Shown here piece after piece: positions 12,670-28,734 of a stretch of DNA of 64,000 bases. Positions within the stretch are counted from its first letter, which is position 1. Every line of letters begins with the position of its first letter. Source of the stretch: Deltaproteobacteria bacterium HGW-Deltaproteobacteria-8 (GTDB lineage: Bacteria > Desulfobacterota > Desulfovibrionia > Desulfovibrionales > Desulfovibrionaceae). The DNA is taken from assembly GCA_002840405.1 (NCBI GenBank), contig PHAR01000003.1, forward strand, positions 127,946-191,945, in the 5' to 3' direction. The notes under the pieces were generated by a model. That model searched no databases. It was not told the origin of the DNA and worked only from the letters and a program-made list of their open reading frames with translations. A program made the translations under genes and the position numbers.

Positions 12670-12770
12670 GCTCGTCCTCCGCGTGATTGTGTCTGTCAGG
12701 CTTGAAATGTAGCATACCCGGCGACGGTTTGCACCCGTCTGGAAAGGCGTTGCCCCCCGCATTTTTCTCC

Positions 12771-12798
12771 TTGACACGTTCGGACATGTACGGCTAAA
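12771..12798 (+). promoter_or_regulatory. Promoter of the tRNA-Lys/tRNA-Glu unit
   Basis: TTGACA at 12771-12776 and a weak -10 (GCTAAA, 12793-12798) with a 16-base spacer lie 16 bases before the first tRNA base. The position and the strong -35 support the call; the -10 is poor. Confidence 0.5.
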
Positions 12799-12814
12799 AG
12801 AGCCTTCCTTCGGG

Positions 12815-12890
12815 GGGCCGTTAACTCAGTTGGTAGAGTATATCACTTTTAATGATAGAGTCGATGGTTCGAGTCCATCACGGCCCACCA
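12815..12890 (+). tRNA. tRNA-Lys (anticodon TTT)
   Basis: A complete 76-nt cloverleaf. Acceptor GGGCCGT pairs with ACGGCCC, the D-stem is ACTC/GAGT, and the anticodon stem TATCA/TGATA holds loop CTTTTAA with anticodon TTT at 12848-12850. The T-stem is GATGG/CCATC with loop TTCGAGT, and CCA is encoded. It is 12 bases upstream of tRNA-Glu and probably shares its transcript. Confidence 0.96.
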
Positions 12891-12902
12891 AAGACTCTGA
12901 AT

Positions 12903-12978
12903 GTCCCCATCGTCTAGTGGCCTAGGACGCTGGCCTCTCACGCCGGTAACAGGGGTTCGAACCCCCTTGGGGACGCCA
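12903..12978 (+). tRNA. tRNA-Glu (anticodon CTC)
   Basis: A complete 76-nt tRNA. Acceptor GTCCCCA pairs with TGGGGAC and CCA is encoded. The anticodon arm CTGGC/GCCGG holds loop CTCTCAC with anticodon CTC at 12937-12939. From 12934 onward the gene is duplicated exactly at 26102-26149, which makes it the likely integration target of the block to its right. Confidence 0.96.
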
Positions 12979-12981
12979 CAA
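12934..12981 (+). repeat. Left copy of a 48-bp tRNA-Glu 3'-end direct repeat (candidate attL)
   Basis: These 48 bases, from the anticodon arm of tRNA-Glu to three bases past its CCA, recur without mismatch at 26102-26149 in the same orientation. A 3'-terminal tRNA segment repeated downstream is the usual trace of tyrosine-recombinase integration. Confidence 0.85.
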
Positions 12982-12987
12982 AAAATC

Positions 12988-13019
12988 AAGGACTTAGGAG
13001 AAATCCCAAGTCCTTTTTT
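12988..13019 (+). terminator. Intrinsic terminator of the tRNA unit
   Basis: AAGGACTT pairs with AAGTCCTT, with an inner GGA/TCC closing a GAAA tetraloop (13000-13003), followed by six Ts. The terminator at 26156-26187 has the same apical part and a different, still perfectly paired, lower stem. Confidence 0.85.
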
Positions 13020-13200
13020 GTTTGCCATACGCATCTTGCCCGCCCCTCAATTCGAGCCCAGGCCCAAAATACATAGGGCATCTCCCCAAAATTTGGGCCG
13101 GCAGGCGCTGATTCTGCTCCACGGGCCTTGTTCCGGGCGCGGTTTCAGGCGCGACAGGCTCAAGGCCTTCAGGCGGAAGAGTGGCTCCGCCCCTGTTTTT

Positions 13201-13257
13201 GCCTCAGAGCTGTTTCCAGTCCTCAGGCTTTGGCGCGGGCTTGCCGCCCGTGGCGAA
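13201..13257. repeat. 57-bp dispersed repeat, copy 1
   Basis: Matches 27325-27381 at 56 of 57 positions in the same orientation. It encodes the C-terminal tail FATGGKPAPKPEDWKQL and stop of two otherwise different small genes on the minus strand. Confidence 0.85.
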
Positions 13258-13437
13258 GTCGCACCACATGCCCGTGTCAGTGTTGACACTGAGCGACTTG
13301 CCGGGGCCTCCCGTGAGGTCACCGCACACGTACTCATGGCCATGTTGGCGACCACCAGGCAGCAAGGACTCCAGCAGGCCAAGTCCGCTTGCATGGGCAA
13401 CTGCATTCACATCATCAAAACTAGGGGATGTTGCCAT
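13204..13437 (-). CDS. Phage/plasmid primase-like zinc-binding fragment
   Basis: A 77-residue protein. Its core, HEYVCGDLTGGPGKSLSVNTDTG followed by MWCDFATG, resembles the N-terminal zinc-binding segment of phage and plasmid primases, where a similar motif is followed by a TOPRIM or primase-polymerase domain. Here the protein stops 17 residues later with GGKPAPKPEDWKQL, so it is a remnant or a stand-alone derivative. The ATG (13435-13437) is preceded by AAGGAGA at good spacing, so translation is plausible. The same C-terminal tail, encoded by nearly the same DNA, ends an unrelated small protein at 27328-27540. It lies just inside the left end of the proposed island. Confidence 0.6.
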   Translation of the reverse strand: MATSPSFDDVNAVAHASGLGLLESLLPGGRQHGHEYVCGDLTGGPGKSLSVNTDTGMWCDFATGGKPAPKPEDWKQL

Positions 13438-14159
13438 GGGGCATCTCCTTCGCATGTTCTTTCAGCCCTCTTTTCAAGATACTACCTCCGCCGTGGAGGT
13501 CCAGGCTCAAATAGGAATTGATCTGGACGGGATTCGCTCTGGCAGTGTTGCGGTATCCATTTGTGGTGTTCGGCCTCAGGCAATGCGAACGGCCCGTCCA
13601 GAGAGCAACGGGCTGTTCGGTTTCTTGGAGAAAACAATGCAATTTCAGTCAAATACTTAATTGAGAGGCGCTGGCCATATTCAGGCAAGCCCCCCCGTGT
13701 CACCATATTTAGTTGTCAAAGATCAGTGCGAGTTCACTCGAGGAAAGAATCACGGTGTTCTCCCCGGACTCGGGCGTTCGCTTTCGGGCGCACAACATAA
13801 TGGGAGATGTGGCGGAAAAGTTAAGTGCCTGGGGCCGATTTCTGGCCATAAGACTGCTTGTGCTCGGTCTGGCGCATGGATAAAAACGCCTGGAAGCATT
13901 GCAAGAGAGGGCTTTTCTGGGCGGCAAAGTTTTTCACTTGAACCATAAATTTGAGCGCGGAGGAGGTTAACTTCCTGACGCGAGGGGGGGGGCGTGAGAG
14001 CCTTGGATCAAACCTCACAAAATGGAGTGTGCCCACCAACTAGAGGGAAGGCGAAGGGCACGTCGTCCGGAGCACAGCAAAAAGCCCCACAGGCTCAGTT
14101 GAGGTGTGGGGCGTGGGGCAAGGCTTCAGGGTTTCAGGGGAGAGGGAGGTCGGCTATGT
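13438..14159. other. Gene-poor stretch at the left end of the island
   Basis: About 720 bases with only short, low-quality open frames on both strands. Base composition is less GC-rich than the flanks. I see no recognisable protein or RNA and take it as decayed DNA. Confidence 0.5.
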
Positions 14160-14395
14160 CTACCTGGGGATCCAGATCCGGAAGGTTGAGCCATGGCCCG
14201 GCTCGCTCACGGCTCCGATGCGGCCGTTGTGCTGGTTCACGGCCTTCTTGGCGATGAACAGGCCCAGGCTAGTGCCGCGCGAGCCCTTGGTGGAGAAGAA
14301 TACCGAGAGCAGGCGCGCGAGGGTGTCCGGCTGCATGCCGATGCCGTTGTCCTCGATCTCGAAGAACACTCCGCTGGCGTCGGGGCGGGCGCAGA
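14160..14395 (-). pseudogene. Histidine kinase C-terminal fragment
   Basis: The frame encodes the end of a HATPase_c domain: FFEIEDNGIGMQPDTLARL (G1 box), FFSTKGSRGTSLGLF (F and G2 boxes) and a normal C-terminus, HGSTFRIWIPR. No dimerisation domain, His box or N box remains. Upstream, at about 14396, the sequence changes abruptly to the start of an IS3-type transposase gene in another frame. The kinase was evidently cut by an insertion whose remaining part was later lost. No convincing start codon exists for the fragment. Confidence 0.75.
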
Positions 14396-14396
14396 A

Positions 14397-14566
14397 TGAA
14401 GGCGATCTGCGAATCCTTGAACCGCGACCTCTTCATGGGAAAATCCTCCGGTTCGGGGTGAGCCAAACCTAACCGGGAATTTTCTCACTTTGAATAGTCC
14501 CGTTTTCGGGAAGCAGGTCAACCATGGACTAACCCAATAGGTGGTAGAACTTCTGGGGGCAGGTCA
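14397..14566 (-). mobile_element. Left-end remnant of an IS3-family element
   Basis: The ATG at 14434-14436 begins MKRSRFKDSQIAFIL, matching the N-terminus of IS3-family OrfA proteins. About 14 codons remain before the sequence joins the kinase fragment. Upstream, the minus strand begins near 14566 with TGACCTGCCCCCAGAAG, which resembles IS3-family terminal inverted repeats (TGA start, C-run). The rest of orfA, all of orfB and the right end are missing, so the remnant cannot move by itself. Confidence 0.65.
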
Positions 14567-14581
14567 GTTCATGACTTGGCG

Positions 14582-16096
14582 TTAGCGCAGGTCAAGGGGG
14601 GCTCCCTTGAATTCCGATATTTCCGGCAGGGTATCATCACGCAATTGCCATATCCAGGCGTCCACGATCTCGGGGTCCCACTGGCGGCCTGCGCCTTCAG
14701 AGAGCACCTGCTTCGCCTGTGAAACGGTCATGGCCTCATGATAGGAACGGATCGAGGTCAATGCCTCGAACCCGTCCGCGACACTTAGTATGCGGGCAAG
14801 CAGCGGTATGTCTGCGCCGCTGCTGCCCGTCGGATAGCCTTGCCCGTTAAACCACTCGTGGTGGTGGTATACCAGAGGAACCACCTCCTCCAGACTGGAA
14901 ACGCGGGAGATGATGTCGCGGCCCACTACGGGATGGCGCTTCATAATCTCGAATTCCTCAGGGGTGAGGCCGCTGGGTTTGTTCAGGATGCCGTCGGGAA
15001 TGCCGATCTTCCCGATGTCGTGTAGGATGCCTGCCGTGCGCAGGATCTCCAAATCCCTGTCGGCCACGCCTAGCGCCTGCCCTAGCAGTGTCGCATAGCC
15101 GCTCACGCGCTCGGAATGGCCACGCGTATAGATATCCTTGGCTTCCACGGCCTGGGCGTAAGAGGTAACCACCTCCGCGCTGATGCCCCGAAAGCGCTGG
15201 CTGGAGAGGATGCTTTCCAAAAAGGGAGCGGCGTGGCCTGTGTATACATTGAGCATCCGCAAATCTTCGCGCGTGTAGGGCGTCGAGCCCTGATCCCGGC
15301 CCAGAGCCAGCACGCCATAGACTCCGCGCATGCCGACAATAGGCACCACAGCAGCGGAGCCCAGGCGCACTCCCTCGCGCAGATCCTCGACGCGCTTGCC
15401 CATCTGGGGTCCCAGCACCATGGCCCCGCACTGCCCGAGCACCAGAGCGACCTTCTCCAGCAGCCAGCTCCGGGTCTGCGGGCACTCGCGGAAGCTTGGC
15501 CCCCAGAGAAACAGCGGCGAGAGCGCCCCGGCTTGGCCTGAGCAGCTGAAAAGAGCCATGGCCTGCGGCGCCAGCGTGCGCTGCACTTGGGTAAGCAACA
15601 CCTTGAAGACCTCTGCACTGTCATTTTGGCCGCGCAGGCGTTCGGAAAAGGACTCGATCTCCCGCACCCGCCCGCCCTTGCTTCGCAGACAGGAGCCGCT
15701 GGCCAACTCCAGGGCGATCTTCTTGAACAGTTGGAGCATGTCGAAGGGTTTGAGCAGATAGTCGGCAGCGCCGAGTTTCAGGCAGTTCACCGCGCTTTCG
15801 ATGGTGCCGTAGCCGGTGAGGAAAATGACTGCCGGGCTCAGGCCGCGCAAGGTGATCTCACGCAGCATCTCCTCACCGCCCAAGCGCGGCATCTTGAGAT
15901 CGGAGAGCACGAGATCCACCGCGTTGCCTTCCAAGACGAGGAGCGCGTCCTCGCCGTTTGCAGCGGTCAGGACGGCGTAGCCTTGCATGCCAAGGGCCTC
16001 AGCATAGGCCTCGCGCAGGGCGGGTTCGTCCTCGACTATGAGAATGTGCCGCGTGTCAGGGGGGGGCATGGCAGTGTGCGGCGGAGTCACCGGCAT
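14582..16096 (-). CDS. Response regulator with GAF-like and HD-GYP output (c-di-GMP phosphodiesterase)
   Basis: A protein of about 504 residues. The N-terminal receiver has HILIVEDEPALREAY, phospho-acceptor Asp in DLVLSDLKMPRLGG and Lys in YLLKPFD. A middle GAF-like region (about 155-330) is followed by an HD-GYP domain: RGHSERVSGYA, HDIGK, and HHHEWFNGQGYPTG. HD-GYP enzymes hydrolyse c-di-GMP; the usual Asp of HHExxDGxGYP is Asn here, which is seen in some members. The start is uncertain: the ATG at 16096 is used, but in-frame alternatives lie at 16135 and 16069 and none has a well-spaced ribosome site. It is divergent from the HDOD-kinase gene, about 220 bases away. Confidence 0.88.
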   Translation of the reverse strand: MPVTPPHTAMPPPDTRHILIVEDEPALREAYAEALGMQGYAVLTAANGEDALLVLEGNAVDLVLSDLKMPRLGGEEMLREITLRGLSPAVIFLTGYGTIESAVNCLKLGAADYLLKPFDMLQLFKKIALELASGSCLRSKGGRVREIESFSERLRGQNDSAEVFKVLLTQVQRTLAPQAMALFSCSGQAGALSPLFLWGPSFRECPQTRSWLLEKVALVLGQCGAMVLGPQMGKRVEDLREGVRLGSAAVVPIVGMRGVYGVLALGRDQGSTPYTREDLRMLNVYTGHAAPFLESILSSQRFRGISAEVVTSYAQAVEAKDIYTRGHSERVSGYATLLGQALGVADRDLEILRTAGILHDIGKIGIPDGILNKPSGLTPEEFEIMKRHPVVGRDIISRVSSLEEVVPLVYHHHEWFNGQGYPTGSSGADIPLLARILSVADGFEALTSIRSYHEAMTVSQAKQVLSEGAGRQWDPEIVDAWIWQLRDDTLPEISEFKGAPLDLR

Positions 16097-16318
16097 CTCC
16101 TCTGCGTGGGGCAGGCGTATGCCGTGCGGACGCATCGCATCATGCGGCGTCAACGGCCATTGGTTTCGAGAACTACAGGAGGAAGGATGCCAACGCAAGC
16201 TCTGCTGGCGCATCCAGGCTAGGGCACTTGATTATTCTTCCATATTCACCGTAGAGAGGGGCACACGGATGGGTTGGACAGCACGCCGCCCTGTCGCAGG
16301 CAAGCACCGGAGATGCGG

Positions 16319-19012
16319 ATGAAACAGAGGAAAGCCCTCCACTCGACTGAGAACTCCGCCAAGGTCCGTGAGGTCCTCAAGAAACTGGAGTCCCTTCCAG
16401 CCCCGCCAGCCGTGGCCGCGCGCGTGCTGGAGTGGATCACCCAGACCGACCCAAGCATCACCGATCTGTGCCAGATCATCACCTCCGACCCCTCGCTTTC
16501 TCTCAAGGTCCTGAAGCTCGCCAACGCCAAAGTGCACGGCATCCAGTTCGGGGACATGAAGATCGAACGCGCCGCCGCCATGCTCGGCACCGCGACGCTC
16601 AGGCAGGTGCTGCTCGGCATCATCATCCGCGACACGCTCATCCGCGACCGCAAGCACGACGACCCCTACCTCGTCCAGATCTGGCTGCACTCCCTGGCCT
16701 GCGCCCTGGCCACCCAGATCGTGGCCGAAAAGATCGCGCCGAAACTGGCGGACATGTCCTTCTCCTGCGGCCTGGTGCATGACTGCGGCAAGCTGGCCCT
16801 GCTCTGCGCCCTGCCCACGGAGTACGAGCACCTGCTCGACGGCGCGCCGCTGTCCGGGCAGCCGCTGCACGCCATGGAAGCCGCAGCCTTCGGCCTGGAC
16901 CATGCCGAGGCGGGCAAATGGCTCACCCAGGCCTGGAACCTACCGAAGCTCTTTGTGGACAGTGCCTGGCTGCACCACCAGCCCGAGTCCGTGCTGGCCG
17001 ACATGGACGAGCATGGGGGCCTGCTCACCCTGCTCGCTCTGGGCAATATCCTGGCCCACGAGGTGCTGGCCGAGCCCCTGGACCCAGCCGCCGTGGAGCG
17101 CCGGAAGTATCTGCTGGACAAGACCCACCTCTCCTTCCACCAGATCGAAAAGCTCAAGGAGCAGGTGGGCAAGCGCCTGGCTGAACGCCGCGAACTCTTC
17201 AGCCTGGATGAAGAGGACGCCGTGGCGACCTTCTGCGGGGCTTTGCAGCGCGCTGGCATACTCCTGACACATATGAACATCGAGCTGACAGCCAAGCGCA
17301 ACGAGGGCGAGCGCACGGGCCGCCTGCTCCAGGCCGTAGCCGACGCGGGACAGGGTTTGGCGCGCGCGTACAACACCGCCGAGATTTTCACCCTGGCCTG
17401 CGCGGCGCTCCGCGAAAGCTTCGACGTCACCACCGGCTGCATCTACGCCCTAGACGCGGAGAACCAGCGGTTAAATGGCCTGGCCTGGGACGCCGGAACT
17501 GAAGCCCATTTCGACTGGCCCCTGGAGGCGGACACGGGCACGCCCCTGCCTCCGCCAAGGGAGAACACGCCTGCCCCAGTGCAGCCCTTTTATGACCTTG
17601 TGCTCAACCACCGGGAGCGCATCCCCTCACCGGACGACCCGCTGTTCACAGGCTTCACTCCGGCCTTTGCGCGACCTTTCCGCACCCTTCCGCTGGCCCT
17701 CGACTGTACATTCCTGGGTGAAATGCTTCTGGGCGCTCAGACCGCCGAAGGCCAGCCAGCAGGCTTGACTGCGGCCCACAGCGAGATCCACGGGCTGGGG
17801 CAGCTCTGCGGCATGGCAGCTGCGGCCCTGGAGCGCCTGGGCACCAGCGCACAGCTGGAGGCGCGCGCCGAACGCCTTGGCGCGGCCATGCGCAGGATGC
17901 AGCAGATCAACCAGAAGCTCATCCAGGCCGAGCGTCTGGCCGCCGTGGGCCAGCTGGCCGCCGGGGCCGCGCACGAGATCAACAACCCGCTGGCCATCAT
18001 CTACGCCCGGTTGCAGATCCTGGGCCTCAAGGAGACAAACGAGAGCCAGCGCACGGCCTTCCGCCAGATGGAGGAGCAGATCGGCCGCATCAGTTCCATC
18101 CTGACGCAGCTCATGGACTTTGCCCGGCCCACCCAACCCCAGTTCGCCACGGTAAACTTCAACGCGCTGCTGGAAAACTCCCTGTCCATGATGTCCGGCA
18201 ACTTCGAAAAACGCGGGGTCAAGGTACTGGTGGAACTGCAGCCGGACCTGCCCCTGGTCTGGGGCGACGCCAAGCTGCTGGAGCAGGTCTTCGTCAATCT
18301 CTTCATCAACGCCGAGCACGCCATGGAGAACGCCGCCGGAGCGCTACGCGTCCGCACCGTCTGGAACAGCGGCATGGGCCATGTGAACGTGGATGTGGAG
18401 GACACCGGCAGCGGCATCGCGCCGGAGCACATCGAGAGCATCTTCGACCCCTTCTTCACCACCAAGGAGGGCAAAGGCACCGGCCTTGGCCTGTCCACCA
18501 GCTACAGCATCGTCAAAAGCCACCAGGGCGACATCCGGGTCACCAGCACCCTGGGCAAGGGCACGCTCTTCCGCGTGAGCCTGCCCGTGGCCCCGGCCCA
18601 GCAGGCCGCTGCCGTCCGGCTGCCGCAGAAAGGCGCAGGCCCCAAACGCTCCGGCGGGGACATCCTGGTGGTCGACGACGAGGTGCGCATCCAGGAACTC
18701 TTGACCGAGGCCCTGGAGATGCACGGCTACAAGGTGGTTGCCTGCGGCAACGGCGAGGAGGCCAAGGAGCTGCTCAAGAAGCGCACCTTCAACCTCATGC
18801 TGCTGGACATCCGCATGCCCGTGCGCAGCGGCCTGTGGCTGCTCTCGGAGATCCGCCGCGCCGCGCTCAAGATGCCGGTCATCGTCCTCACCGGGCTGGC
18901 CACCCCGGAAGAGCGCGACCAAGCCTTGGAGCTTGGCGCCATCCGCTGTTTCCAGAAACCCTTCAAGGTGGACGAGCTGCTCGAAGCGGTGGACGCCACA
19001 CTCAAAAAGTAG
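16319..19012 (+). CDS. HDOD-GAF hybrid histidine kinase with C-terminal receiver
   Basis: An 897-residue soluble protein with an unusual order: HDOD domain (about 15-290; AAAMLGTATLRQVLLGIII, GLVHDCGKLALL), then a GAF-like region (about 330-520) and a coiled linker. The kinase core follows, with H box GQLAAGAAHEINNPLAII, N box VFVNLFINAEHAMENA, G1 VEDTGSGIAPEH and F/G2 FFTTKEGKGTGLGLSTS. A receiver ends the protein (ILVVDDEVRIQELL, Asp in LMLLDIRMPVRSG, Lys in CFQKPFKV). HDOD domains are degenerate HD folds used as protein-interaction modules. The ATG at 16319 has GGAG six bases upstream; another ATG lies two codons earlier. The MinD-like gene begins 6 bases after its stop, implying one operon. 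Confidence 0.9.
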   Translation: MKQRKALHSTENSAKVREVLKKLESLPAPPAVAARVLEWITQTDPSITDLCQIITSDPSLSLKVLKLANAKVHGIQFGDMKIERAAAMLGTATLRQVLLGIIIRDTLIRDRKHDDPYLVQIWLHSLACALATQIVAEKIAPKLADMSFSCGLVHDCGKLALLCALPTEYEHLLDGAPLSGQPLHAMEAAAFGLDHAEAGKWLTQAWNLPKLFVDSAWLHHQPESVLADMDEHGGLLTLLALGNILAHEVLAEPLDPAAVERRKYLLDKTHLSFHQIEKLKEQVGKRLAERRELFSLDEEDAVATFCGALQRAGILLTHMNIELTAKRNEGERTGRLLQAVADAGQGLARAYNTAEIFTLACAALRESFDVTTGCIYALDAENQRLNGLAWDAGTEAHFDWPLEADTGTPLPPPRENTPAPVQPFYDLVLNHRERIPSPDDPLFTGFTPAFARPFRTLPLALDCTFLGEMLLGAQTAEGQPAGLTAAHSEIHGLGQLCGMAAAALERLGTSAQLEARAERLGAAMRRMQQINQKLIQAERLAAVGQLAAGAAHEINNPLAIIYARLQILGLKETNESQRTAFRQMEEQIGRISSILTQLMDFARPTQPQFATVNFNALLENSLSMMSGNFEKRGVKVLVELQPDLPLVWGDAKLLEQVFVNLFINAEHAMENAAGALRVRTVWNSGMGHVNVDVEDTGSGIAPEHIESIFDPFFTTKEGKGTGLGLSTSYSIVKSHQGDIRVTSTLGKGTLFRVSLPVAPAQQAAAVRLPQKGAGPKRSGGDILVVDDEVRIQELLTEALEMHGYKVVACGNGEEAKELLKKRTFNLMLLDIRMPVRSGLWLLSEIRRAALKMPVIVLTGLATPEERDQALELGAIRCFQKPFKVDELLEAVDATLKK

Positions 19013-19018
19013 CCCAGC

Positions 19019-20437
19019 GTGGGTGCCCTGCCGAAGATTATTTCCGTGGCCAGCGGCAAGGGGGGCGTAGGCAAGACCAACGTCACCCTGAACCTGGCCT
19101 GGGCCTTGGCTCGCCTGGGCCGTAGCGTCTGCCTTTTCGACGCCGACCTGGGACTCTCCAACGTCGATGTGCTCCTGGGCATCAGCCCGCAGCGCACCCT
19201 GGACCAGGTGCTCTTCGAGGGCCTGCCGCTCTCCCAGGTCATCACGCCCGTGGCCACGGGCATCGACCTGGTGCCGGGTTCCTCGGGCGTGGCGCGCATG
19301 GCCGAGCTCACCCGCGCCGCCCGCACTCGCCTCGTCCGCGAGTTCGCCGCCCTGTCTTGCTACGATTACGTGCTAGTGGACAATTCGCCCGGCATCTCGC
19401 CCCAGGTGCTGGCGCTGTGCCTGGCGGCCCAGGAACTCGTGGTGGTGGTGAACCCGGAGGTCACCTCCCTTACAGACTCCTATGCCCTCATCAAGGTGCT
19501 GCACGGGCGCGGGCTCTCCTGGCCGCCGCTGGTGCTGATCAACCGCGCCCAGAGCCCCCAGGCCGCGGAGCTGGCCTTTCGCCGCATCCAGGCCACGGCC
19601 CAGAAGCACCTGAAGCTCAACTGCACCTATTTGGGCTATTTGCCGGAGGACGTGAGCGTGGCCCGGGCCAGCGCCCTGCAGCGGCCCGTGCTGGAGGCCT
19701 TCCCGCAGTCTGCTTTCGCCCAGGCCGTGGTCCAGGCAGCGGGCCGCCTGGCCGGGGCCGCCCGCCTGAGCCTCGCTCGCGCCGTGGAGCCCTCAAGCTT
19801 CTGGGACGAAACCGTGCGCGTGTTGCAGCAAACCGTGCCCGCCAGCGCTCGAACCGGAACCAGGGCCGCAGGCGCGGCCCCGGAAGCCCAGACCATGATG
19901 CGCGATGTCGAGGCCGTGCGCGCGCTGTTCATGCGGCTGGACTTCAAAGGAGCGCCGGAACCGTTGCGGCGCATAGCCGAGGCAGGCAAGGGCCATGCGC
20001 AGAACCTCATCGCGGCCCTGGAGCGCATCGCCCCCGGCCTATCGCCGTTGCCCCGGCCTGCACCAGCCCAGAAAGCAGCGCCGCAGGAGGACAGGGACTC
20101 CACCGCCGTGCTCGTGCGCTGCGCCAACCAGGACATGGGCCAGATCGTGGCGGACATCCTGCGCGAAATGCGCCTGACCCCGCTCTTGTCCACCAACGGC
20201 GGCACGGCACCGGAGTCAGGCCGAGCGGCCCTCTGCATCCTTGCAGCGCCGGAGGAAACGCCCGCCGTGGCCGCCTATCTCAAAGCCCTGGACGACATCC
20301 CAGTGCTCATTCTGGACGAAAGCTTTGGCCGCAACCGGGTGGCCTGGCTTGGCCTGCCGGGGGTGAGGGCAGTTCTGCCTGTACCTTTCGAGGTGCCGGA
20401 GTTCATCCACAACATCGAGACCCTGTTGCACTGCTAA
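19019..20437 (+). CDS. MinD/FlhG-like ParA-type ATPase with C-terminal degenerate receiver
   Basis: A 472-residue protein. The N-terminal 260 residues form a ParA/MinD ATPase: deviant Walker A ASGKGGVGKTN, FDADLGLSNVDVLLG (the version typical of FlhG/FleN), and LVDNSPGIS as switch II. The C-terminal 110 residues (from AVLVRCANQDMGQIV) look like a receiver fold, but the strand that should carry the phospho-acceptor reads ALCILAAPE, with no Asp, so it is a pseudo-receiver. A region of low similarity links the two. It starts at GTG 19019, six bases after the kinase stop, with no clear ribosome site, suggesting translational coupling. Its role may be to place a complex at a cell pole; this is inference from the family. 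Confidence 0.82.
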   Translation: MGALPKIISVASGKGGVGKTNVTLNLAWALARLGRSVCLFDADLGLSNVDVLLGISPQRTLDQVLFEGLPLSQVITPVATGIDLVPGSSGVARMAELTRAARTRLVREFAALSCYDYVLVDNSPGISPQVLALCLAAQELVVVVNPEVTSLTDSYALIKVLHGRGLSWPPLVLINRAQSPQAAELAFRRIQATAQKHLKLNCTYLGYLPEDVSVARASALQRPVLEAFPQSAFAQAVVQAAGRLAGAARLSLARAVEPSSFWDETVRVLQQTVPASARTGTRAAGAAPEAQTMMRDVEAVRALFMRLDFKGAPEPLRRIAEAGKGHAQNLIAALERIAPGLSPLPRPAPAQKAAPQEDRDSTAVLVRCANQDMGQIVADILREMRLTPLLSTNGGTAPESGRAALCILAAPEETPAVAAYLKALDDIPVLILDESFGRNRVAWLGLPGVRAVLPVPFEVPEFIHNIETLLHC

Positions 20438-20617
20438 AGCCGGTAGGTCGACCTCTCGTTCGCGGGGGGACGGCTTGCCCCCGTCGCACAGCAAAAGAGC
20501 CTTTTCAAAGCCCGTCCGGTCGTTCTCGTAACGCCTCTTCCTCCCAGCGTGGCACTATCGTGGCTTGGTGGCTGAAATCCTGCCAGCATGGAAGCATTAG
20601 ATTTTTTGATATATCCA

Positions 20618-20646
20618 TTGCAAAATTTTTTCTAACAAGATATTAT
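20618..20646 (+). promoter_or_regulatory. Sigma-70-type promoter for the HDOD/GGDEF-EAL genes
   Basis: TTGCAA (20618-20623), a 17-base A/T-rich spacer and TATTAT (20641-20646) lie 53 bases before the ATG at 20699. The surrounding 60 bases are markedly AT-rich. Confidence 0.65.
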
Positions 20647-20698
20647 AACCTATAGGCCTTTGCAGGAAAGTTCTTCGCCCCCAAGGAGACACTCCTAG

Positions 20699-21940
20699 AT
20701 GACTCAGATTACACTCTCTCAGGTATCTGAAGGGATGGTTTTGGCTGAGGATCTGGTATCCCCCCAGGGGAGACTGCTCTTTTGCCGTGGCGTTACCCTT
20801 GAAGAGAAGCATATCCGTGCGTGCAAGGTCTGGGGGATCGCCGAAGTCGCCATAGAAGGCGTGACGCCTCCGCCGGAAGAAGTGACGCCGAAGGTGATCC
20901 CTCCGGAGCTGCTGCACCAGGCCAGCGAGCTCTGCCTGGAATTTTTCGCCCTGAATAACGTACGCCACCCTGTGGTTCGCGAGGCGATGAAAATCTACCG
21001 GGACAGGGCGGCGCTCTGCCTGCTAGATGACAGGCAGCGCGCTCTGGCCGTGATCGCCAGAAAGAGCCCGCCCCCGGTTTCCACCGAGCCCGCCCCTGTG
21101 CCCAGCCTTGATGACCTCGCCAAGCTGAACATGAAGATGGCCTCCACCCCGGACGTCTTCAACCGCATACTCCAGGCCTTGAACGACCCCTACAGCTCCG
21201 CCAGTTACATGGCGGATGTCCTTGGCAAGGACATCGCCCTTTCCACGCGGATTTTGCGGGCGGTCAATTCCGCATACTACGGCTGCCCCAAGAAGGTGGA
21301 CACCCTGACCCGGGCCATCACCATCATTGGCATCTCCAATATCCTCAACCTCGCGGTGGGCATCGTCGTCATCTCTATGTTCACGGATTTCCAGGACGAC
21401 GAGATGAACATGGCCAACTTCTGGAGGCACTCCATCGGCTGTGGCATCATAGCCAGGATGCTCGCCATCCGCTCCGGCAAGCAGAACGAGGAACGCTATT
21501 TCGTGGCCGGGCTCATCCACGACATCGGACGGCTTGTGATGCTCCAGAATTTCAGCCCCGCTGCCAGGAAGGCCATCCTGCAGTCCCGGAGCGCCCTGGA
21601 GCCGCTCCAGCACACAGAGCGGAAGCTCTGGGGCTTCACGCATGCGGACGTTGCGGATCGGCTCTTCGACAAGTGGGATTTCCCTGAATTCTTCAAGGTC
21701 TGCATTGCAAACCATCACGCTCCCGGCGCTGTGGCCTACGATGACGACGCCTGCCTTCTCCATGCGGCCGACTTCTGGTGCCACGCCCTGAACCTGGGCA
21801 TCAGCGGCGCCAGCCTGGCGCCCCCCCTGGACGCGGAGGCCTGGGAGCGCCTGAAGGTCTCCAAGGGCACCATGGGTTCGCTCCTTGTGCAGATCGACAG
21901 CCAAGTGGACGACGCCATGCGCGCCTTCCTGGGGAACTGA
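20699..21940 (+). CDS. HDOD domain signalling protein
   Basis: A 413-residue soluble protein. The first 110 residues (LSQVSEGMVLAEDLVSPQGRLLFCRGVTL) resemble the N-terminal module often placed before HD-GYP and HDOD domains. An HDOD domain follows (about 150-350) with LSTRILRAVNSAYYG, TRAITIIGISNILNLAV and the partly kept HD-like motif GLIHDIGRL. HDOD proteins do not usually hydrolyse nucleotides; they work as adaptors in two-component and c-di-GMP circuits. AAGGAG lies upstream of the ATG. The GGDEF-EAL gene begins 3 bases after the stop, so the two are almost certainly co-translated. Confidence 0.88.
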   Translation: MTQITLSQVSEGMVLAEDLVSPQGRLLFCRGVTLEEKHIRACKVWGIAEVAIEGVTPPPEEVTPKVIPPELLHQASELCLEFFALNNVRHPVVREAMKIYRDRAALCLLDDRQRALAVIARKSPPPVSTEPAPVPSLDDLAKLNMKMASTPDVFNRILQALNDPYSSASYMADVLGKDIALSTRILRAVNSAYYGCPKKVDTLTRAITIIGISNILNLAVGIVVISMFTDFQDDEMNMANFWRHSIGCGIIARMLAIRSGKQNEERYFVAGLIHDIGRLVMLQNFSPAARKAILQSRSALEPLQHTERKLWGFTHADVADRLFDKWDFPEFFKVCIANHHAPGAVAYDDDACLLHAADFWCHALNLGISGASLAPPLDAEAWERLKVSKGTMGSLLVQIDSQVDDAMRAFLGN

Positions 21941-21943
21941 GCC

Positions 21944-24316
21944 ATGAATGACGGGATCCATCCCCCTGACTTCTACAAGAAGCGCGTGGTGCATCTGGAG
22001 GAAGCCCAGCGCTTCACCCTGGAAGCGCTGAACCTTGTGCTGGACCTGAACGACTTTGGCGAGAGTTTCAGCCGCTTGACCAGCGCCGAGACAATCTTTG
22101 CCAAATCCCAAAACATCATCAAGGCCCTGATTGATTTCAGAAGCCTGGCGTTTTTCACAATCAACGATGAGGACCAAAACCTCAACCTCGCCTATGCCTT
22201 TCCCGAAGAGGACCGGACGCTGCACCAGGGCATCCTCAATGAGCTTGTGGAGAAGGGCCAGGCTGCCACGGTCCTGCGTTCGGATACCATCCATTTCCTC
22301 CGCCACGCACAGTCGCGCGAGGTCATGGTCAAGTCCCTGAACTCGCAGTCCCGCTGCCGAGGCCTGTTCATCGGTGTCCTGAACGGCAAGCGCAACCTGA
22401 TCCATGACGCCTTGCTGACCATACTGGTCATTCTTCTACAGGCCACGGCCCAGGCCCTCGAAAGCTTTGAACTCTATTCCCTGCTGCGGAGCAAGAACGA
22501 GCGGCTTGACGCACAGCTCGGGGAGATCAGGCAATCCCAGGAAGAGCTGACGCAGGAGCGCAGCGCCCTTGAAACAACGGTGAAGAAGCTCAACGAGCAG
22601 ATCGTTGAGCGCAAAACTGCGGAGATCCGCCTGGCAGAGTCGCGGAACATGCTCCGCTTGGTCATGGACAGCATCCCGCAGTTTGTTTCCTGGAAAAACG
22701 ACAAACTCATCTATCAGGGGTGCAACAACAACTTCCTGCGCGCCACGGGGTTGGAGAGGGTCGAAGACCTCGTCGGGCTTTCGGATTTCGAACTGCCCTG
22801 GACCAGGGAGGAGGCTGAAGGCTACCGCGCGGCGGAACAACGCATCCTCTCCTCGGGCATTCCCGAGTATGCGATCATCGAAACCCAGCGTCAGACCGAC
22901 GGGCGCGTGATATGGATTGAGACCAACAAGGTCCCGCTACTGGACAGCCACGGGCGCGTTATCGGCATCCTCGCCTGCTTCCAGGACATCTCCGAGCGCC
23001 AGAAATATGAGCAGAAGCTCACGCACTTGGCCCTGCACGACGCCTTGACGGATATGCCCAACAGAACCCTGTTTATGGACCGGCTGAAGCAGTGCATGGA
23101 GCGGGTGCGGAGAAGCGGACGCTTCCATTTCGCTGTGATTCTGCTGGACCTGGACAATTTCAAGGCCGTCAACGACACCCTGGGGCACATGTCCGGCGAC
23201 AAGGTCCTGGTGGAGGTCAGCCATCGCATCTCCGGCTGCCTGCGAGGGGTGGACACCGTGGCCCGCCTGGGCGGTGACGAGTTTGCCATCCTTCTTACAG
23301 AACTCGCCAATGCCGGGGAGTCCATCCGTATCATCAAAAGGATGCTGGGCAGCATCTCCCGGGTCATCAAGTTGGAGGGCAAGGAGATCTTTCCTGCCAC
23401 CAGCGCGGGCATTGTGCTCAACCTCGGACAGTATTCGTCCACCGAGGACATCCTCCGGGACGCGGACATCGCCATGTACAGCGCCAAGTCCTCAGGTGGC
23501 AACAGGATCAAGGTCTTCAGGCCCTCCATGCACGCCAAGGCCCTCACCCGGGCCACGGTGGAAAGCGATCTGCGCATGGGACTGATCCGCAACGAGTTCC
23601 GTGTCCACTATCAGCCTATCTTCACCTTGAGCAGCGGAATTCTGGCGGGATTTGAGGCTCTGATCCGTTGGCAGCATCCCTTGCGGGGGCTGCTGCCTCC
23701 GGGGGATTTTATCTCCGTGGCCGAGGATACCGGTCTGATCATCAACATGGATCTGATGGTTCTGAGGCAGGCCTGTTTCTGCATGCAGGAGTGGATGAGC
23801 AACGGGAACGTGAACTCCGGAATGAGCATGTCAGTAAACCTCTCGGCTAAGCATCTGCACAACCAAGGCCTGCCGATGCAGATCAAGGCCATTCTGGAGG
23901 CCACCAAACTGCCGTCGCATTTCCTGCGAATCGAGATAACGGAATCCGCAGTGATGAAAGATGCGGACATGGCCTTGACCATACTTCAGCAGATCAAAAC
24001 CCTTGGAGTTCGTCTGGCTCTGGACGACTTTGGGACCGGGTATTCGTCCCTGGCCTATCTGCAACGTTTCCCTCTGGATGTGTTGAAGATCGACCGGGCT
24101 TTCATCGTTGATCTCTGCTCCAACACTAGAAGTTTAGAGATCGTCAAGGCCGTTATCAGCATCGGCATGAGCATGGGCTTCAAGATCGTTGCCGAGGGCG
24201 TCGAAAGTATTGACCAGGCTTCACTCCTGGGAACGATCAACTGCGACTATGTCCAGGGATTTCACTATTCCAGGCCGGTCAATGAGAGCATTGCAAGAGG
24301 TTTCTTGTGCAATTGA
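21944..24316 (+). CDS. GAF/PAS-GGDEF-EAL protein (c-di-GMP turnover)
   Basis: A 790-residue soluble protein. After a GAF-like region (about 40-180) and a coiled coil comes one PAS domain (about 230-360). The GGDEF domain keeps RLGGDEF and an RGVD inhibitory site five residues before it, so cyclase activity with product feedback is expected. The EAL domain keeps FEALIRWQHP, NLSAKHL, EITES, LDDFGTGYSSL, DRAFI and AEGVES, the metal and substrate residues, so phosphodiesterase activity is possible too. Which activity dominates cannot be told. It is coupled to the upstream HDOD gene and lies in the proposed island with an HD-GYP regulator. Confidence 0.92.
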   Translation: MNDGIHPPDFYKKRVVHLEEAQRFTLEALNLVLDLNDFGESFSRLTSAETIFAKSQNIIKALIDFRSLAFFTINDEDQNLNLAYAFPEEDRTLHQGILNELVEKGQAATVLRSDTIHFLRHAQSREVMVKSLNSQSRCRGLFIGVLNGKRNLIHDALLTILVILLQATAQALESFELYSLLRSKNERLDAQLGEIRQSQEELTQERSALETTVKKLNEQIVERKTAEIRLAESRNMLRLVMDSIPQFVSWKNDKLIYQGCNNNFLRATGLERVEDLVGLSDFELPWTREEAEGYRAAEQRILSSGIPEYAIIETQRQTDGRVIWIETNKVPLLDSHGRVIGILACFQDISERQKYEQKLTHLALHDALTDMPNRTLFMDRLKQCMERVRRSGRFHFAVILLDLDNFKAVNDTLGHMSGDKVLVEVSHRISGCLRGVDTVARLGGDEFAILLTELANAGESIRIIKRMLGSISRVIKLEGKEIFPATSAGIVLNLGQYSSTEDILRDADIAMYSAKSSGGNRIKVFRPSMHAKALTRATVESDLRMGLIRNEFRVHYQPIFTLSSGILAGFEALIRWQHPLRGLLPPGDFISVAEDTGLIINMDLMVLRQACFCMQEWMSNGNVNSGMSMSVNLSAKHLHNQGLPMQIKAILEATKLPSHFLRIEITESAVMKDADMALTILQQIKTLGVRLALDDFGTGYSSLAYLQRFPLDVLKIDRAFIVDLCSNTRSLEIVKAVISIGMSMGFKIVAEGVESIDQASLLGTINCDYVQGFHYSRPVNESIARGFLCN

Positions 24317-24478
24317 CAACGTTCTCCCTGCACAGGGTCGTTCTGGCCACAAGACGCTCCTGGCGGACTTTTTACTTGGAACCCGTGTAACCGCACCCTC
24401 ATGTTGGCGGGGATGTCGCCGACGTTGCAGACATGGGAATTCCATAAGGACAGGATCATAATCGAGGGAGGCCGGGAT

Positions 24479-25897
24479 ATGGGCATCAGTTCATGGCAGG
24501 CGGAGAGCATCACCACGAAAGTTGAAAAGCCCACGCCGCCGCCCCCCCCCAGGGGGGACCAGGATGTGCGTGATTTTTTGGAAGCCCACTGCGGCGCTCT
24601 TGTCATACTGAGCGAGGACGGATTATTTATCAAGACCATGCGCGCAGGGGTGCTTCGCGCCCTGCAGATCAAGCGCGACTGCGTGGGCGCGTTCCGGGAT
24701 CCCGCGACTGCCCTGAGCGGAATCCGGGACCAGGCGCGGGCGAACGTCCCTGTACTGATCTTGGTGGATCGCATCCTGGCCGGGAAACCGACCACGGAGT
24801 TCATACGCACGGTCAAGACGCAATACCCCCTTCTGAAACTCATTGTCCTGACCTATGAAACGACGAAGGACTCCCTGTCCCTGCTCTTCGAGATTGGCGC
24901 CGACCACGTGGTCACCAAGCCTGTGTCCGTGGACACACTCATCGAGAAGATGGCCGGGGTCATAAAGCCTCAGTCGAAGATCAGTCAGCTCGTGCAGAAT
25001 GCGCGCGTTCACCTGGAGCATGGTGAATTCGACAAGGTGTTCGGCCTCTGCGAGGCAATTCTCGCCATGAAGCAGCAAAGCCCCATCGCCCTTATGCTCC
25101 GAGGCGAGGCCTTTATGAAGAACGGCAACAAGGAGGAGGCCATCGAGGAATTCGAGAAGGCCCACAAGGCTTCACCCCTGTATCTCGAACCACTCAAGAA
25201 GCTGGCAGATGTCCATAGGGATGGGAACGTGGAACAGTTTCTGACCTACATGCTCCGGCTGGACAGCATCAGTCCGCTCAACGTGGAGCGCAAGTGCGAG
25301 ATCGGCAACTGCTATATTCGCAAACATGAGCCAGACAACGCCAAGGAGTTCTTTGACAAGGCCATCGCCTGCGCGCAGGAAGAGGCCAAGCGTTACCTGT
25401 GCACTATCATCTCCGATATGGCTCACGCCATGTTGGAGGTTTCACCGGAACAGTCGGAAAAGTATTTTTCCCAATATCTCGATGCGAAGGGTGACGAATT
25501 GTCCAAGGACGACATTGTCGCCTTCAATAGTCGTGGCATAGCCATGCGTAAGCAGGGCAAATGGCGCGAAGCGGTAGAAAACTACGAGACAGCCCTCAAG
25601 ATTGATCCCGAAGACATTCGCCTTTTGTACAATTACGCCTTGGCCTATGCCGATGGTGAGCAGCACAAAAAGGCCATTGACCTGTACGAAAGAGTCCTGC
25701 ACAAGGATCCGGAGTTCCACCTCAGGGCTGCTGTTGTCAGCTACAACATCGCCAACTCATATTACCATGTCAAAGACATAAAAAATGCTAAACTATACAT
25801 TAACACAGCACTGGAGATCGACCCCGATCACGCATCCTCCAAGAGACTACTGGTGCGCATATTCGAAGCATCCCCGCGAAATCCTGTCCGGGTCTAG
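24479..25897 (+). CDS. Receiver-like domain fused to TPR repeats
   Basis: A 472-residue protein. Residues about 35-175 form a receiver-like fold: LVILSEDGLFIKTM, VLILVDRILAGK with a candidate phospho-acceptor Asp, IVLTYETT and HVVTKPVS. The rest consists of tetratricopeptide repeats (for example ALMLRGEAFMKNGNKEEAIEEFEKA and ENYETALKIDPEDIRLLYNYALAYADG), a protein-docking scaffold. A run of prolines precedes the receiver. The acidic start of a receiver is only partly kept, so phosphorylation is uncertain. The ATG at 24479 is chosen for GGGAGG just upstream; the frame is open 26 codons earlier. It is the last gene before the right-hand tRNA-Glu copy. Confidence 0.8.
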   Translation: MGISSWQAESITTKVEKPTPPPPPRGDQDVRDFLEAHCGALVILSEDGLFIKTMRAGVLRALQIKRDCVGAFRDPATALSGIRDQARANVPVLILVDRILAGKPTTEFIRTVKTQYPLLKLIVLTYETTKDSLSLLFEIGADHVVTKPVSVDTLIEKMAGVIKPQSKISQLVQNARVHLEHGEFDKVFGLCEAILAMKQQSPIALMLRGEAFMKNGNKEEAIEEFEKAHKASPLYLEPLKKLADVHRDGNVEQFLTYMLRLDSISPLNVERKCEIGNCYIRKHEPDNAKEFFDKAIACAQEEAKRYLCTIISDMAHAMLEVSPEQSEKYFSQYLDAKGDELSKDDIVAFNSRGIAMRKQGKWREAVENYETALKIDPEDIRLLYNYALAYADGEQHKKAIDLYERVLHKDPEFHLRAAVVSYNIANSYYHVKDIKNAKLYINTALEIDPDHASSKRLLVRIFEASPRNPVRV

Positions 25898-26101
25898 AGG
25901 CAGGCCAGTTGGGCTGGGGAAAATAGAATTCTCCCACTTAGCTTCTCCCAGCTCTCGCCGAGTATATCTACCCATGAGCTGGGCTTAACCCTGTCGCCGG
26001 GGGGGAATTGGGGGGAAGACCGAGTGTATCTGGATACATTTCATGTAGCCAGGTGCGCCGTAACTTGCTGGGATCGCTGCATCCCAGGCGTTAGCGCCCG
26101 C
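25898..26101. other. Non-coding stretch before the right island boundary
   Basis: About 200 bases with no credible open frame or RNA. With the tRNA fragment and terminator that follow, the gap to the next gene (26274) totals about 375 bases. It does not resemble the 5' half of a tRNA-Glu gene beyond a few bases. Confidence 0.5.
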
Positions 26102-26149
26102 CCTCTCACGCCGGTAACAGGGGTTCGAACCCCCTTGGGGACGCCACAA
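26102..26149 (+). repeat. Right copy of the tRNA-Glu 3' end (candidate attR)
   Basis: This is a perfect 48-bp copy of 12934-12981: anticodon loop with CTC, 3' half of the anticodon stem, variable loop, T-arm, acceptor 3' strand and CCA. The 5' half of the tRNA is absent, so it is not a functional tRNA gene. It marks the far end of a 13.2-kb interval. Confidence 0.85.
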
Positions 26150-26155
26150 GAATTC

Positions 26156-26187
26156 AGGCGGTTAGGAGAAATCCTGACCGCCTTTTT
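26156..26187 (+). terminator. Intrinsic terminator following the tRNA-Glu fragment
   Basis: A 12-bp stem (26156-26167 with 26172-26183) closed by a GAAA tetraloop and followed by five Ts. The apical TTAGGAGAAATCC is identical to the terminator after the intact tRNA-Glu; the lower stem differs on both sides and still pairs. Confidence 0.85.
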
Positions 26188-26273
26188 CGTTGGGAGAATG
26201 CACTCCCCTCGCTATTCCCCATGTCTTCCCGTGCATCCTCTGCCCGGAAGAGCCCCCGACGGGGAGGGCATCT

Positions 26274-26762
26274 TCAGATGCCCTTGATCCATTCGGAGAT
26301 GGCCTTCTTCTTCCGCTCTGGAAAGTCGCGGCAGACCTGATCATGCAGCCAGCGAAGAGACCTGGCGCGCAGACTGCCCCGTAACAATTCCTCAGCCTCC
26401 TGCATCACCACCTTGATCAGGCAGGGGCATTTGTTTGTGAAGGCGGATGGATCATCAACAAAGATGTTCTTCTTGCGGATTTCCGCGCACTGGAAAAAAA
26501 ACGAAGGGCCTTCCACGGCCTCGATGATGTCCCAGAAGGACACGTCCTCTGCGGGCCGAGCCAGTTCGTAGCCGCCTTTGACCCCCGGAATGGACCTGAC
26601 GAGCCCCGCCCTGCGCAGTTTGGCGAAGACCTTGGAAAGGTAGCTCTCCGTGATCCCGTGCAGTTCGGCTATCTGCCGTATGCCGACGGGTTTGTGCTCC
26701 GGTATGTCCACGAGATAGAACAGCGAATGGAACGCGTACTCAACGCCGACACCGAACTGCAT
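26274..26762 (-). CDS. Rrf2-family transcriptional regulator
   Basis: A 162-residue winged-helix regulator. The N-terminal HTH reads GIRQIAELHGITESYLSKVFAKLRRAGLVRS, followed by the wing GVKGGYELARP, the Rrf2 signature. Three cysteines (QCAEIRK, then KCPCLIKV) sit where IscR, NsrR and RsrR bind an iron-sulfur cluster, so it probably senses redox state, NO or cluster supply. The ATG at 26760-26762 has GGAGG five bases upstream; a GTG four codons earlier is less likely. It is divergent from the FMN-binding protein gene across 131 bases, which suggests that it controls that gene and itself. Confidence 0.9.
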   Translation of the reverse strand: MQFGVGVEYAFHSLFYLVDIPEHKPVGIRQIAELHGITESYLSKVFAKLRRAGLVRSIPGVKGGYELARPAEDVSFWDIIEAVEGPSFFFQCAEIRKKNIFVDDPSAFTNKCPCLIKVVMQEAEELLRGSLRARSLRWLHDQVCRDFPERKKKAISEWIKGI

Positions 26763-26814
26763 GTGAACCTCCACTCGCTGCGTAATAAAAATATTCTAAC
26801 TCGCCACGCAGGGC

Positions 26815-26843
26815 TTGACCAGACCCAAATAGGACATTATGGA
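26815..26843 (+). promoter_or_regulatory. Candidate promoter of the FMN-binding protein gene
   Basis: TTGACC (26815-26820), 17 bases, then TATGGA (26838-26843). It lies in the 131-bp divergent region with an AT-rich patch at 26781-26800, where the Rrf2 protein could bind. No clear palindromic operator was identified. Confidence 0.4.
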
Positions 26844-26893
26844 TATCACGGATAGCTGTTGACCACAATACTCTAGCATCGAGGAGAGGCCAT

Positions 26894-27265
26894 ATGTTTA
26901 CAGACACATTTCGCGAGGTGGTAGGCAAAGAAGGTGTTGTTTCCATTGTCACCTGCGCCGAGAACGAGGCTCACGTGGCCAACACCTGGAATTCGTACCT
27001 TGGGCTGCCGGACAGTGAGAGGCTGCTCATACCTTCATGGAAAATGAGGAAGACGGAGCAGAACACGCTCAAGAACAACAAGGTGCTGCTCACCCTTGGG
27101 AGCAAGGAAGTACCGGGCCTTATTGGTCCGGGCACTGGATTTCTTCTGGAAGGCACCGCGCGGTTCTTCAAGTCGGGAGAGGAGTTTGACGCGATGAAGG
27201 CGAAATTCCCGTTTCTCACGCGTGTTCTGGAGGTCACGGTAACATCGCTCAAGCAGACGATTTAG
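26894..27265 (+). CDS. FMN-binding protein, pyridoxamine-phosphate-oxidase fold
   Basis: A 123-residue flavoprotein. The sequence follows the small FMN-binding protein of Desulfovibrio vulgaris along its whole length: a GVVSIVT segment, ANTWNSYL, a KTE.N motif, VLLTLGSKEV, GPGTGFLLEGTARF and a C-terminal QTI. That protein is a split-barrel homodimer binding one FMN per subunit; its physiological role is unsettled (electron transfer has been proposed). Divergent placement next to an Rrf2 regulator with a likely iron-sulfur site hints at a stress or redox role. A strong terminator follows. Confidence 0.88.
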   Translation: MFTDTFREVVGKEGVVSIVTCAENEAHVANTWNSYLGLPDSERLLIPSWKMRKTEQNTLKNNKVLLTLGSKEVPGLIGPGTGFLLEGTARFFKSGEEFDAMKAKFPFLTRVLEVTVTSLKQTI

Positions 27266-27293
27266 AGGGGCGCCAGCCCCGAGGGCAAAGGAA

Positions 27294-27322
27294 AAGGGCC
27301 ATCCGTCACGGGGATGGCCCTT
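27294..27322. terminator. Bidirectional terminator between convergent genes
   Basis: An 11-bp perfect stem (27294-27304 with 27312-27322) with a 7-nt loop lies between the FMN-binding protein gene (+) and the small minus-strand gene ending at 27328. Confidence 0.75.
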
Positions 27323-27324
27323 CC

Positions 27325-27381
27325 GCCTCAGAGCTGCTTCCAGTCCTCAGGCTTTGGCGCGGGCTTGCCGCCCGTGGCGAA
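27325..27381. repeat. 57-bp dispersed repeat, copy 2
   Basis: Near-identical (56 of 57) to 13201-13257. It lies about 1.2 kb outside the right island boundary, whereas copy 1 lies about 0.2 kb inside the left one. Confidence 0.85.
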
Positions 27382-27540
27382 CATGGTCGCCACGTACTCG
27401 AACGCCGCCGCAAGGTTCTTGGCCGTGCAGAGCTGCGCCGTCACGCCCTTGTCGGTCAGGGTGACGCGCACGCAGTCGCGCAACTCCACGATGTCGATCT
27501 CGAACTTCTTGGCCGGGTCCGCATACACATACGTGCTCAT
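27328..27540 (-). CDS. Small protein of unknown function with a shared C-terminal tail
   Basis: A 70-residue protein, MSTYVYADPAKKFEIDIV at its start and FATGGKPAPKPEDWKQL at its end. The middle (VRVTLTDKGVTAQLCTAKNL) does not match a family I recognise. The last 17 residues are identical to those of the primase-like fragment at 13204-13437 although the rest is unrelated, so the tail was moved as a DNA block. AGGAG lies eight bases upstream of the ATG. It is probably a phage-type accessory gene; the Sel1 gene sits 50 bases upstream on the same strand. Confidence 0.6.
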   Translation of the reverse strand: MSTYVYADPAKKFEIDIVELRDCVRVTLTDKGVTAQLCTAKNLAAAFEYVATMFATGGKPAPKPEDWKQL

Positions 27541-28706: not shown

Positions 28707-28734
28707 CATTGTGCAACACGCGAAGGAGCGCCCC

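Follow-up and report, generated by a model that had tools for sequence, protein, structure and literature searches.

A displaced tRNA-Glu fragment beside signalling genes in a Desulfovibrionaceae genome: one mobile island or a layered insertion site?

When the 3' part of a tRNA gene recurs some 13 kb downstream of the complete gene, do the two copies bound a single mobile element? The question is raised by a 64,000-nucleotide stretch of Deltaproteobacteria bacterium HGW-Deltaproteobacteria-8, hereafter the window, which is part of contig C2 (PHAR01000003.1) of a 3.5-Mb source genome in 13 contigs. Here a complete tRNA-Glu(CTC) gene and a fragment of it flank a series of signalling genes, and an original prediction had placed one mobile signalling island between the repeats. 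We consider it somewhat probable, at roughly 0.55, that the locus is rather an immobile, layered insertion site beside the tRNA-Glu(CTC) gene, in which two alleles have recombined and further layers have been added. The integration scar, the lost integrase and a relative free of the block (G013) are in agreement with the prediction, but the notion that the repeats bound one element is argued against by a left site of the vacant type, a right edge at 27.3 kb, a joint at a second repeat (B1/B2) and a conserved trio of genes. The two terminators, the second repeat, the fusion of a primase-like sequence to a gene here called D and the low-GC DNA continuing past the scar to about 27.3 kb are additions to what had been noted before. 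The features on which the argument turns are the following, where G, C and L numbers here and below are our handles for genomes, contigs and loci and "own" refers to the source genome.

12815-12890: tRNA-Lys (ARAGORN)
12903-12978, forward strand: complete tRNA-Glu(CTC) (ARAGORN; Rfam 12903-12975)
12934-12981, forward strand: repeat copy A1, inside and just past the tRNA-Glu gene (48/48 identical to A2)
12988-13022 (ends approximate), forward strand: terminator directly 3' of the tRNA-Glu gene (hairpin script, folding energy)
13201-13257, reverse strand: repeat copy B1, a detached end of gene D comprising its last 17 codons, its stop and 3 further nt (56/57 identical to B2)
13204-13455, reverse strand: chimeric open reading frame (ORF), a primase-like N-terminus fused in frame to the gene D tail (tblastn; side-by-side translation)
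26102-26149, forward strand: repeat copy A2, the 3' part of tRNA-Glu without the 5' half, a scar of the attR (right attachment site) type (48/48 identical to A1)
26150-26192, forward strand: second, different, intact terminator 3' of the scar (hairpin comparison, folding energy)
27325-27381, reverse strand: repeat copy B2, the gene D 3' end in place (56/57 identical to B1)
27328-27540, reverse strand: gene D (70 aa), present in varied contexts across the genus (congener comparison)

The exact match of A1 and A2 over 48 nt spans tRNA positions 32-79, and by our own estimate from base composition chance is ruled out for such a repeat within 64 kb. As had been noted, the second copy lacks the 5' half; ARAGORN calls no tRNA at 26.1 kb and a single full tRNA-Glu gene in the window. 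The likeness extends to 91 nt at 85% (12934-13024 and 26102-26192), since each copy precedes its own hairpin with a run of T. Furthermore, tRNA-Glu genes are recurrent integrase targets in the genus. Five integrase-bearing tRNA-Glu islands were found, one in the source genome (own C5) and four in three congeners (G008 C9, G009 C7, G014 C44 and G014 C22), in which the tRNA gene and the distal copy match exactly over 44-50 nt starting at tRNA position 30-35 (TTC genes being 2 nt longer than CTC genes in this comparison), as compared to 48 nt from position 32 in the window. In own C5 the tRNA-Glu(TTC) gene at 254858 is followed by an integrase match (255073) and then by the partial distal copy (297810), a layout shared by the other four. 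Since the edge of A2 at position 32 falls inside the range of these islands, A2 fits an attR-type scar of their class, and the claimed trace of integration at a tRNA 3' end is borne out; judged from these comparisons, A2 is a genuine integration scar of the tRNA-Glu island class.

The tRNA side of the locus appears, by its sequence, to be in the vacant form at present, that is tRNA plus terminator, and not to have the architecture of an occupied site. We read 62 nt downstream of 27 tRNA-Glu genes from 15 genomes, two of them at contig ends and 25 thus readable, and terminators, called by a simple hairpin script, are absent from exactly the six sites in which a PF00589 (tyrosine integrase) match starts 138-185 nt downstream. 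They are present in the other 19, the window's among them with a 12-bp stem beginning 9 nt past tRNA-Glu, although two of the 19 calls are weak (G003_b and G007_b); G007_b carries a repeat known from three integrase-bearing TTC sites, its contig ends about 400 nt further on, and the site is probably occupied. The hairpins at A1 and A2 have folding energies of -15.6 and -24.6 kcal/mol (z -3.67 and -5.11), and the two terminators are both intact and differ in both stem arms. Both types are found at sites without integrase, the A1-like type in G013 and the A2-like type in G010, G007, G004 and G011, and window positions 12792-13024 are 93.6% alike to G013. Element DNA of the attL (left attachment site) type directly after a regenerated tRNA is not seen in the window, a reading that fails if the attachment site of the incoming element (attP) can carry a terminator. 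The repeat found after four TTC genes is likewise missing from the window, as it is from some integrase-bearing sites.

That repeat, an exact GGATATCC-N4-GGATATCC shortly 3' of a 78-nt (TTC) tRNA-Glu gene in four genomes (L047:1969-1988, L206:340-359, L209:339-358 and L215:295-314, with L140 being the same place as L215), was found at no other site among 247 loci and perhaps represents integrase arm sites. Other tRNA-Glu sites of the source genome should also be mentioned. Own C5:254858-297877 is a 43-kb integrase-bearing stretch at tRNA-Glu(TTC) with a distal copy, and own C3:282369-284093 (L049:7322-9093) carries a pair of orphan scars of the tRNA-Glu 3' end, separated by 1.7 kb, of which one has a terminator. 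An integrase gene lies near this pair, a Na+/H+ antiporter gene sits between the two scars, and in the 20 kb read no tRNA was called. In the window, a 1579-aa multi-PAS/GAF sensor kinase with internal repeats (8038-12777) adjoins the tRNA pair, and related sequence lies upstream of the tRNAs in several congeners.

The second repeat pair, B1/B2, points to an event apart from tRNA integration. The chimeric ORF resembles primase-like sequences up to residue 69-72, its best match being a stretch of an Azospirillum plasmid that bears no annotation (E 1e-8, with 53.8% identity and 78% of the query covered), followed by Acidovorax phage Aval (E 2e-6) under the label virulence protein E, a topoisomerase-primase of phage VarioGold (E 2e-4) and Pseudomonas phages (E 0.04), where most labels read DNA primase; it matched no Pfam or PHROGs model. 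In side-by-side translation it tracks the primases through CDFATG and then switches to the gene D tail, which the D proteins of eight congeners show to be native to gene D. We read the fusion as a putative recombination joint at this short shared stretch. No second D-tail copy of 57 bp was found among 14 congeners, the only matches being 30-39 nt long, in G008, G011 and G014. In the eight congeners in which gene D was examined, DNA likeness ends at the gene ends in most pairs and the neighbours differ.

On the favoured reading, a vacant allele would have consisted of the tRNA, its terminator, about 177 bp and gene D, and an occupied allele would have contributed the right end of an island, the scar and the scar's own terminator. 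The two would have been joined at the short stretch shared by the primase-like gene and gene D, and in the process attL and the integrase side would have been lost and the remainder rendered immobile, the trio, the HDOD, GGDEF-EAL and receiver-TPR genes and the Rrf2/PNPOx pair being separate layers. The order of these events, the recombination of two alleles and a foreign origin of the low-GC genes are what the arrangement suggests. The genes concerned and their right-hand neighbours are as follows.

14160-14432, reverse strand: remnant of a histidine kinase, the C-terminal part of its ATPase domain (Pfam E 2.5e-16)
14582-16213, reverse strand: receiver-GAF-HD-GYP response regulator, conserved trio (Pfam, motifs, relatives)
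16274-19012, forward strand: HDOD-HisKA-HATPase-receiver hybrid kinase, conserved trio (Pfam, relatives)
19019-20437, forward strand: MinD/ParA-like ATPase with an unassigned C-terminal part, conserved trio (Pfam, relatives)
20699-21940, forward strand: HDOD protein, distant matches only in seven listed congeners (Pfam, relatives)
21944-24316, forward strand: unassigned N-terminal domain plus PAS-GGDEF-EAL (Pfam, motifs)
24401-25897, forward strand: receiver-TPR protein (Pfam)
26274-26774, reverse strand: Rrf2-family regulator (Pfam)
26894-27265, forward strand: small PNPOx-fold protein (Pfam; relatives' loci)
27591-27935, reverse strand: Sel1-repeat protein (Pfam)
28589-28650, forward strand: fluoride riboswitch, then MFS, CrcB and DUF190-CBS genes, the right neighbour (Rfam)

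Composition divides this block. One GC change point lies inside it at 20370 (support 20252-20574) and another at 27266 (support 27242-27315), and the scar at 26.15 kb is not an edge. Codon scores, for which the other ORFs of the window are the reference, are 0.40 for the HDOD-kinase, 0.39 for MinD and 0.13 for HD-GYP, then 0.23 for the HDOD protein, 0.19 for GGDEF-EAL and 0.00 for receiver-TPR, and finally 0.08 for Rrf2 and -0.26 for PNPOx; codon use is less host-like in the HDOD, GGDEF-EAL and receiver-TPR genes and in the Rrf2/PNPOx pair. A comparison of GC content and codon use across 12.9-26.2 kb, as had been proposed, thus does find deviant genes, but the right edge is at 27.24-27.32 kb and not at the scar. 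A single foreign cargo was considered and rejected on account of the change point and the codon use that divide the block.

The trio is a conserved cluster within this taxonomic order, as judged from gene arrangement in relatives. The HDOD-kinase gene directly precedes MinD in the window and in all nine relatives examined, which were hand-picked from MinD matches, and a divergent HD-GYP gene stands beside them in the window and in six of eight testable relatives, being missing from G053 and G026 (in G259 the contig ends); three genes and orientation are then as in the window, but no tRNA-Glu is found in those loci as read. Gene calls in relatives were made by ORF and third-position GC (GC3) choice on draft genomes, several of them less than 90% complete. 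Within the genus, high-identity MinD matches occur in G011 and G007 besides the source genome (3/15), and the DNA match of the trio stops at the MinD stop in G011 and starts near the HD-GYP stop in G007, the other ends being contig ends. In the portions of the open-licence literature available to us we found no paper naming the cluster, and in open-licence literature we found none on tRNA-Glu islands in Desulfovibrio.

The HDOD protein downstream of the trio has matches with E-values of 1e-27 to 3e-32 in seven congeners named among the results of a search spanning 247 genomes, a set outside which the other seven congeners possibly fall, and its best match, at 48%, is in G048, a member of another family, in which it is followed by a GGDEF-EAL homologue. 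The unassigned domain of about 235 aa that begins the GGDEF-EAL protein follows the HDOD gene in the window (20699-22650) and in L101, L102, L103, L104 and L112. It is joined to GGDEF-EAL in the window and G048 and apparently to a histidine kinase in G063, G043, G216 and G212, and the gene and the domain would apparently form one sensor pair with exchangeable outputs. PNPOx was found in 27 of 348 genomes, belonging to 8 of 59 genera. Among 26 loci of relatives, 13 have an Rrf2 homologue next to the PNPOx gene, and in 11 of these the two are divergent. These figures weaken the idea, tried and set aside, of Rrf2/PNPOx as donor flank. In loci L223-L229 the likeness to the window is confined to 26280-27307, and in G006 the pair is 81% identical in DNA across 26253-27304, the contig ending on the Rrf2 side.

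The signalling content is as claimed, with Pfam matches and open frames for all six genes, and motifs matching what we take to be the HD-GYP, Walker A, GGDEF and EAL-type patterns are present. From their domains the products are predicted to include a receiver-controlled HD-GYP hydrolase of cyclic di-GMP (c-di-GMP), an HDOD hybrid kinase, a MinD-like ATPase and a diguanylate cyclase/phosphodiesterase. The unusualness of a c-di-GMP and two-component cargo was overstated, the source genome having 63 matches to HATPase_c and 34 to GGDEF at E 1e-5. Phage and insertion sequence (IS) debris is indeed present at the left end, but it is thin, amounting to the primase-like N-terminus, the kinase ATPase end and an IS3-like fragment of low significance (E 0.009 at best; E 0.01 for a match annotated as IS3 transposase). 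That no integrase is visible between the repeats is confirmed by contig C2 having no match to PF00589 at E 1e-5 and none to PF00239 at E 0.001. The tyrosine recombinase fragments expected at 13.0-14.6 kb were sought in vain, since the ORFs there that were scanned with PHROGs and Pfam gave no integrase match, and a decayed integrase in this interval was accordingly rejected.

Relatives without the block do not show the junction of 12981 to 26150 that excision between the repeats would leave. In G013 about 165 bp separate the tRNA-Lys/tRNA-Glu pair with its terminator from sequence matching the window from 28741 onwards. In G011 tRNA-Glu and terminator are followed by about 170 bp and sequence matching from 30072 onwards, but ARAGORN reads the anticodon as TTC and the contig ends just upstream, and this may therefore be a different tRNA gene. 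The block is absent from G013, and with this caveat from G011, but what is absent is everything to 28.7 kb or further. In G008 about 4 kb of other genes and then gene D lie between the tRNA and CrcB. In the window itself, the fluoride riboswitch precedes an MFS transporter, CrcB and a DUF190-CBS protein (28589-31802). None of the relatives' loci examined holds the block in the same order, and with a single full tRNA-Glu gene in the window the original prediction stands on this point.

Several observations weigh against a two-allele recombinant. The vacant allele that it predicts, in which 177 bp separate the tRNA terminator from gene D, was seen in no genome read, the gap in G008 being 3.9 kb. 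At the tRNA-Glu(TTC) gene of G004, a terminator-bearing tRNA is followed by kinase and binding-protein genes and a scar with its own terminator, and G008 has the same two genes past the distal core of its island. A tRNA-scar pair may therefore fail to delimit a single element, or else certain elements come with a terminator, and something simpler, for instance an attP carrying a terminator, may account for the pattern in the window. The same case undercuts a tRNA plus fragment as sole proof of an island. Furthermore, the closest relatives by rpoB, read for 12 of the 15 genomes, are G002 (95.0%) and G012 (93.9%) and gave no CTC site from which the native terminator type could be read, and the commonest type in the genus is that of A2, a better fit to integration of an island in one step. 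The occurrence of PNPOx in other contexts both with and without Rrf2 means that the low-GC DNA past the scar need not have arrived with the island. The left GC change point (12683) precedes the tRNA and decides nothing, and among the 33 ORFs outside 13-28 kb nine score below 0.3 in codon use, as compared to 24 above.

The main rival is that an island with body 12982-26149 integrated in one step by an attP holding the tRNA 3' end and terminator, that its integrase side decayed and that the 57-bp repeat arose afterwards by local duplication. The 48/48 core identity, the attR-type right end, debris on the side where an integrase is expected and the similar arrangement in G004 would all follow, as would the genus-common terminator at A2 if A2 retains the native flank. 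It is nonetheless made unlikely by the facts that none of the six integrase-bearing sites has a tRNA-side terminator, that the right composition edge is at B2 and not at A2, that composition and codon use divide the body in two and that B1 requires a second event. The broader notion that some tRNA-Glu islands of the genus have an attP consisting of the tRNA 3' half and a functional terminator, both of which would be restored on integration, the window and G004 being the cases, is likewise doubtful.

Less probable still, and in our view improbable, is the insertion of a 14.1-kb piece (13258-27324) into the gene D 3' end, restoring D, by a recombinase or a single crossover, with the tRNA scar as mere cargo. 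The near identity of B1 and B2 over the D stop and last 17 codons and a right composition edge 10-83 bp from B2 are as it would have them, but the left edge is an in-frame primase-like fusion at a shared motif, with the look of a short-homology joint and not of an att core, the contig has no PF00589 or PF00239 match, and an equally long second D-tail copy is lacking among the 14 congeners. That the interval is largely native and the scar a stray tRNA-terminator fragment is very improbable, since orphan scars with no tRNA called in the surrounding stretch read (own C3 twice, G012 C30) and the G004 tRNA-to-scar genes recurring in G008 beyond the distal core are outweighed by the absence from G013 (and G011, with its caveat) of everything between the terminator and the fluoride-gene sequence, by the HDOD protein having only distant matches in the listed congeners and by the low-GC tract with its poor codon scores.

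An immobile, layered site of the kind favoured here resembles known systems in part, as far as the sections of the three sources available to us describe them. In Islander, a regenerated target and a displaced fragment mark the island ends (PMC4383910), and the window shares with those tRNA islands a 3' fragment displaced downstream in the same orientation and an edge that falls, as is common in that database, in the anticodon region, but it lacks an integrase match, an attL-type tRNA side and a right composition edge at the repeat (PMC4383910). A cis-mobilizable element (CIME) keeps both attL and attR (PMC5704250); the window is similar in having no integrase match, a retained attR-type end and the target class of the live islands of the genus, but attL is not kept and the tRNA side is of the vacant type (PMC5704250). 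The ssrA islands of Dehalococcoides likewise show a single RNA gene repeatedly targeted, downstream scars, islands free of an integration module and variable cargo (PMC3146451), although they involve a serine integrase, a 20-bp repeat and a tmRNA target, as opposed to tRNA-Glu and the tyrosine integrases of the congeners here (PMC3146451).

If the favoured reading is true, a complete tRNA gene and its displaced fragment can flank something other than a single element, and island ends called from such a pair alone would be wrong. The site would furthermore record how an island lost its mobile half while cargo remained, and it would place a c-di-GMP and two-component gene cluster in an integration hot spot.

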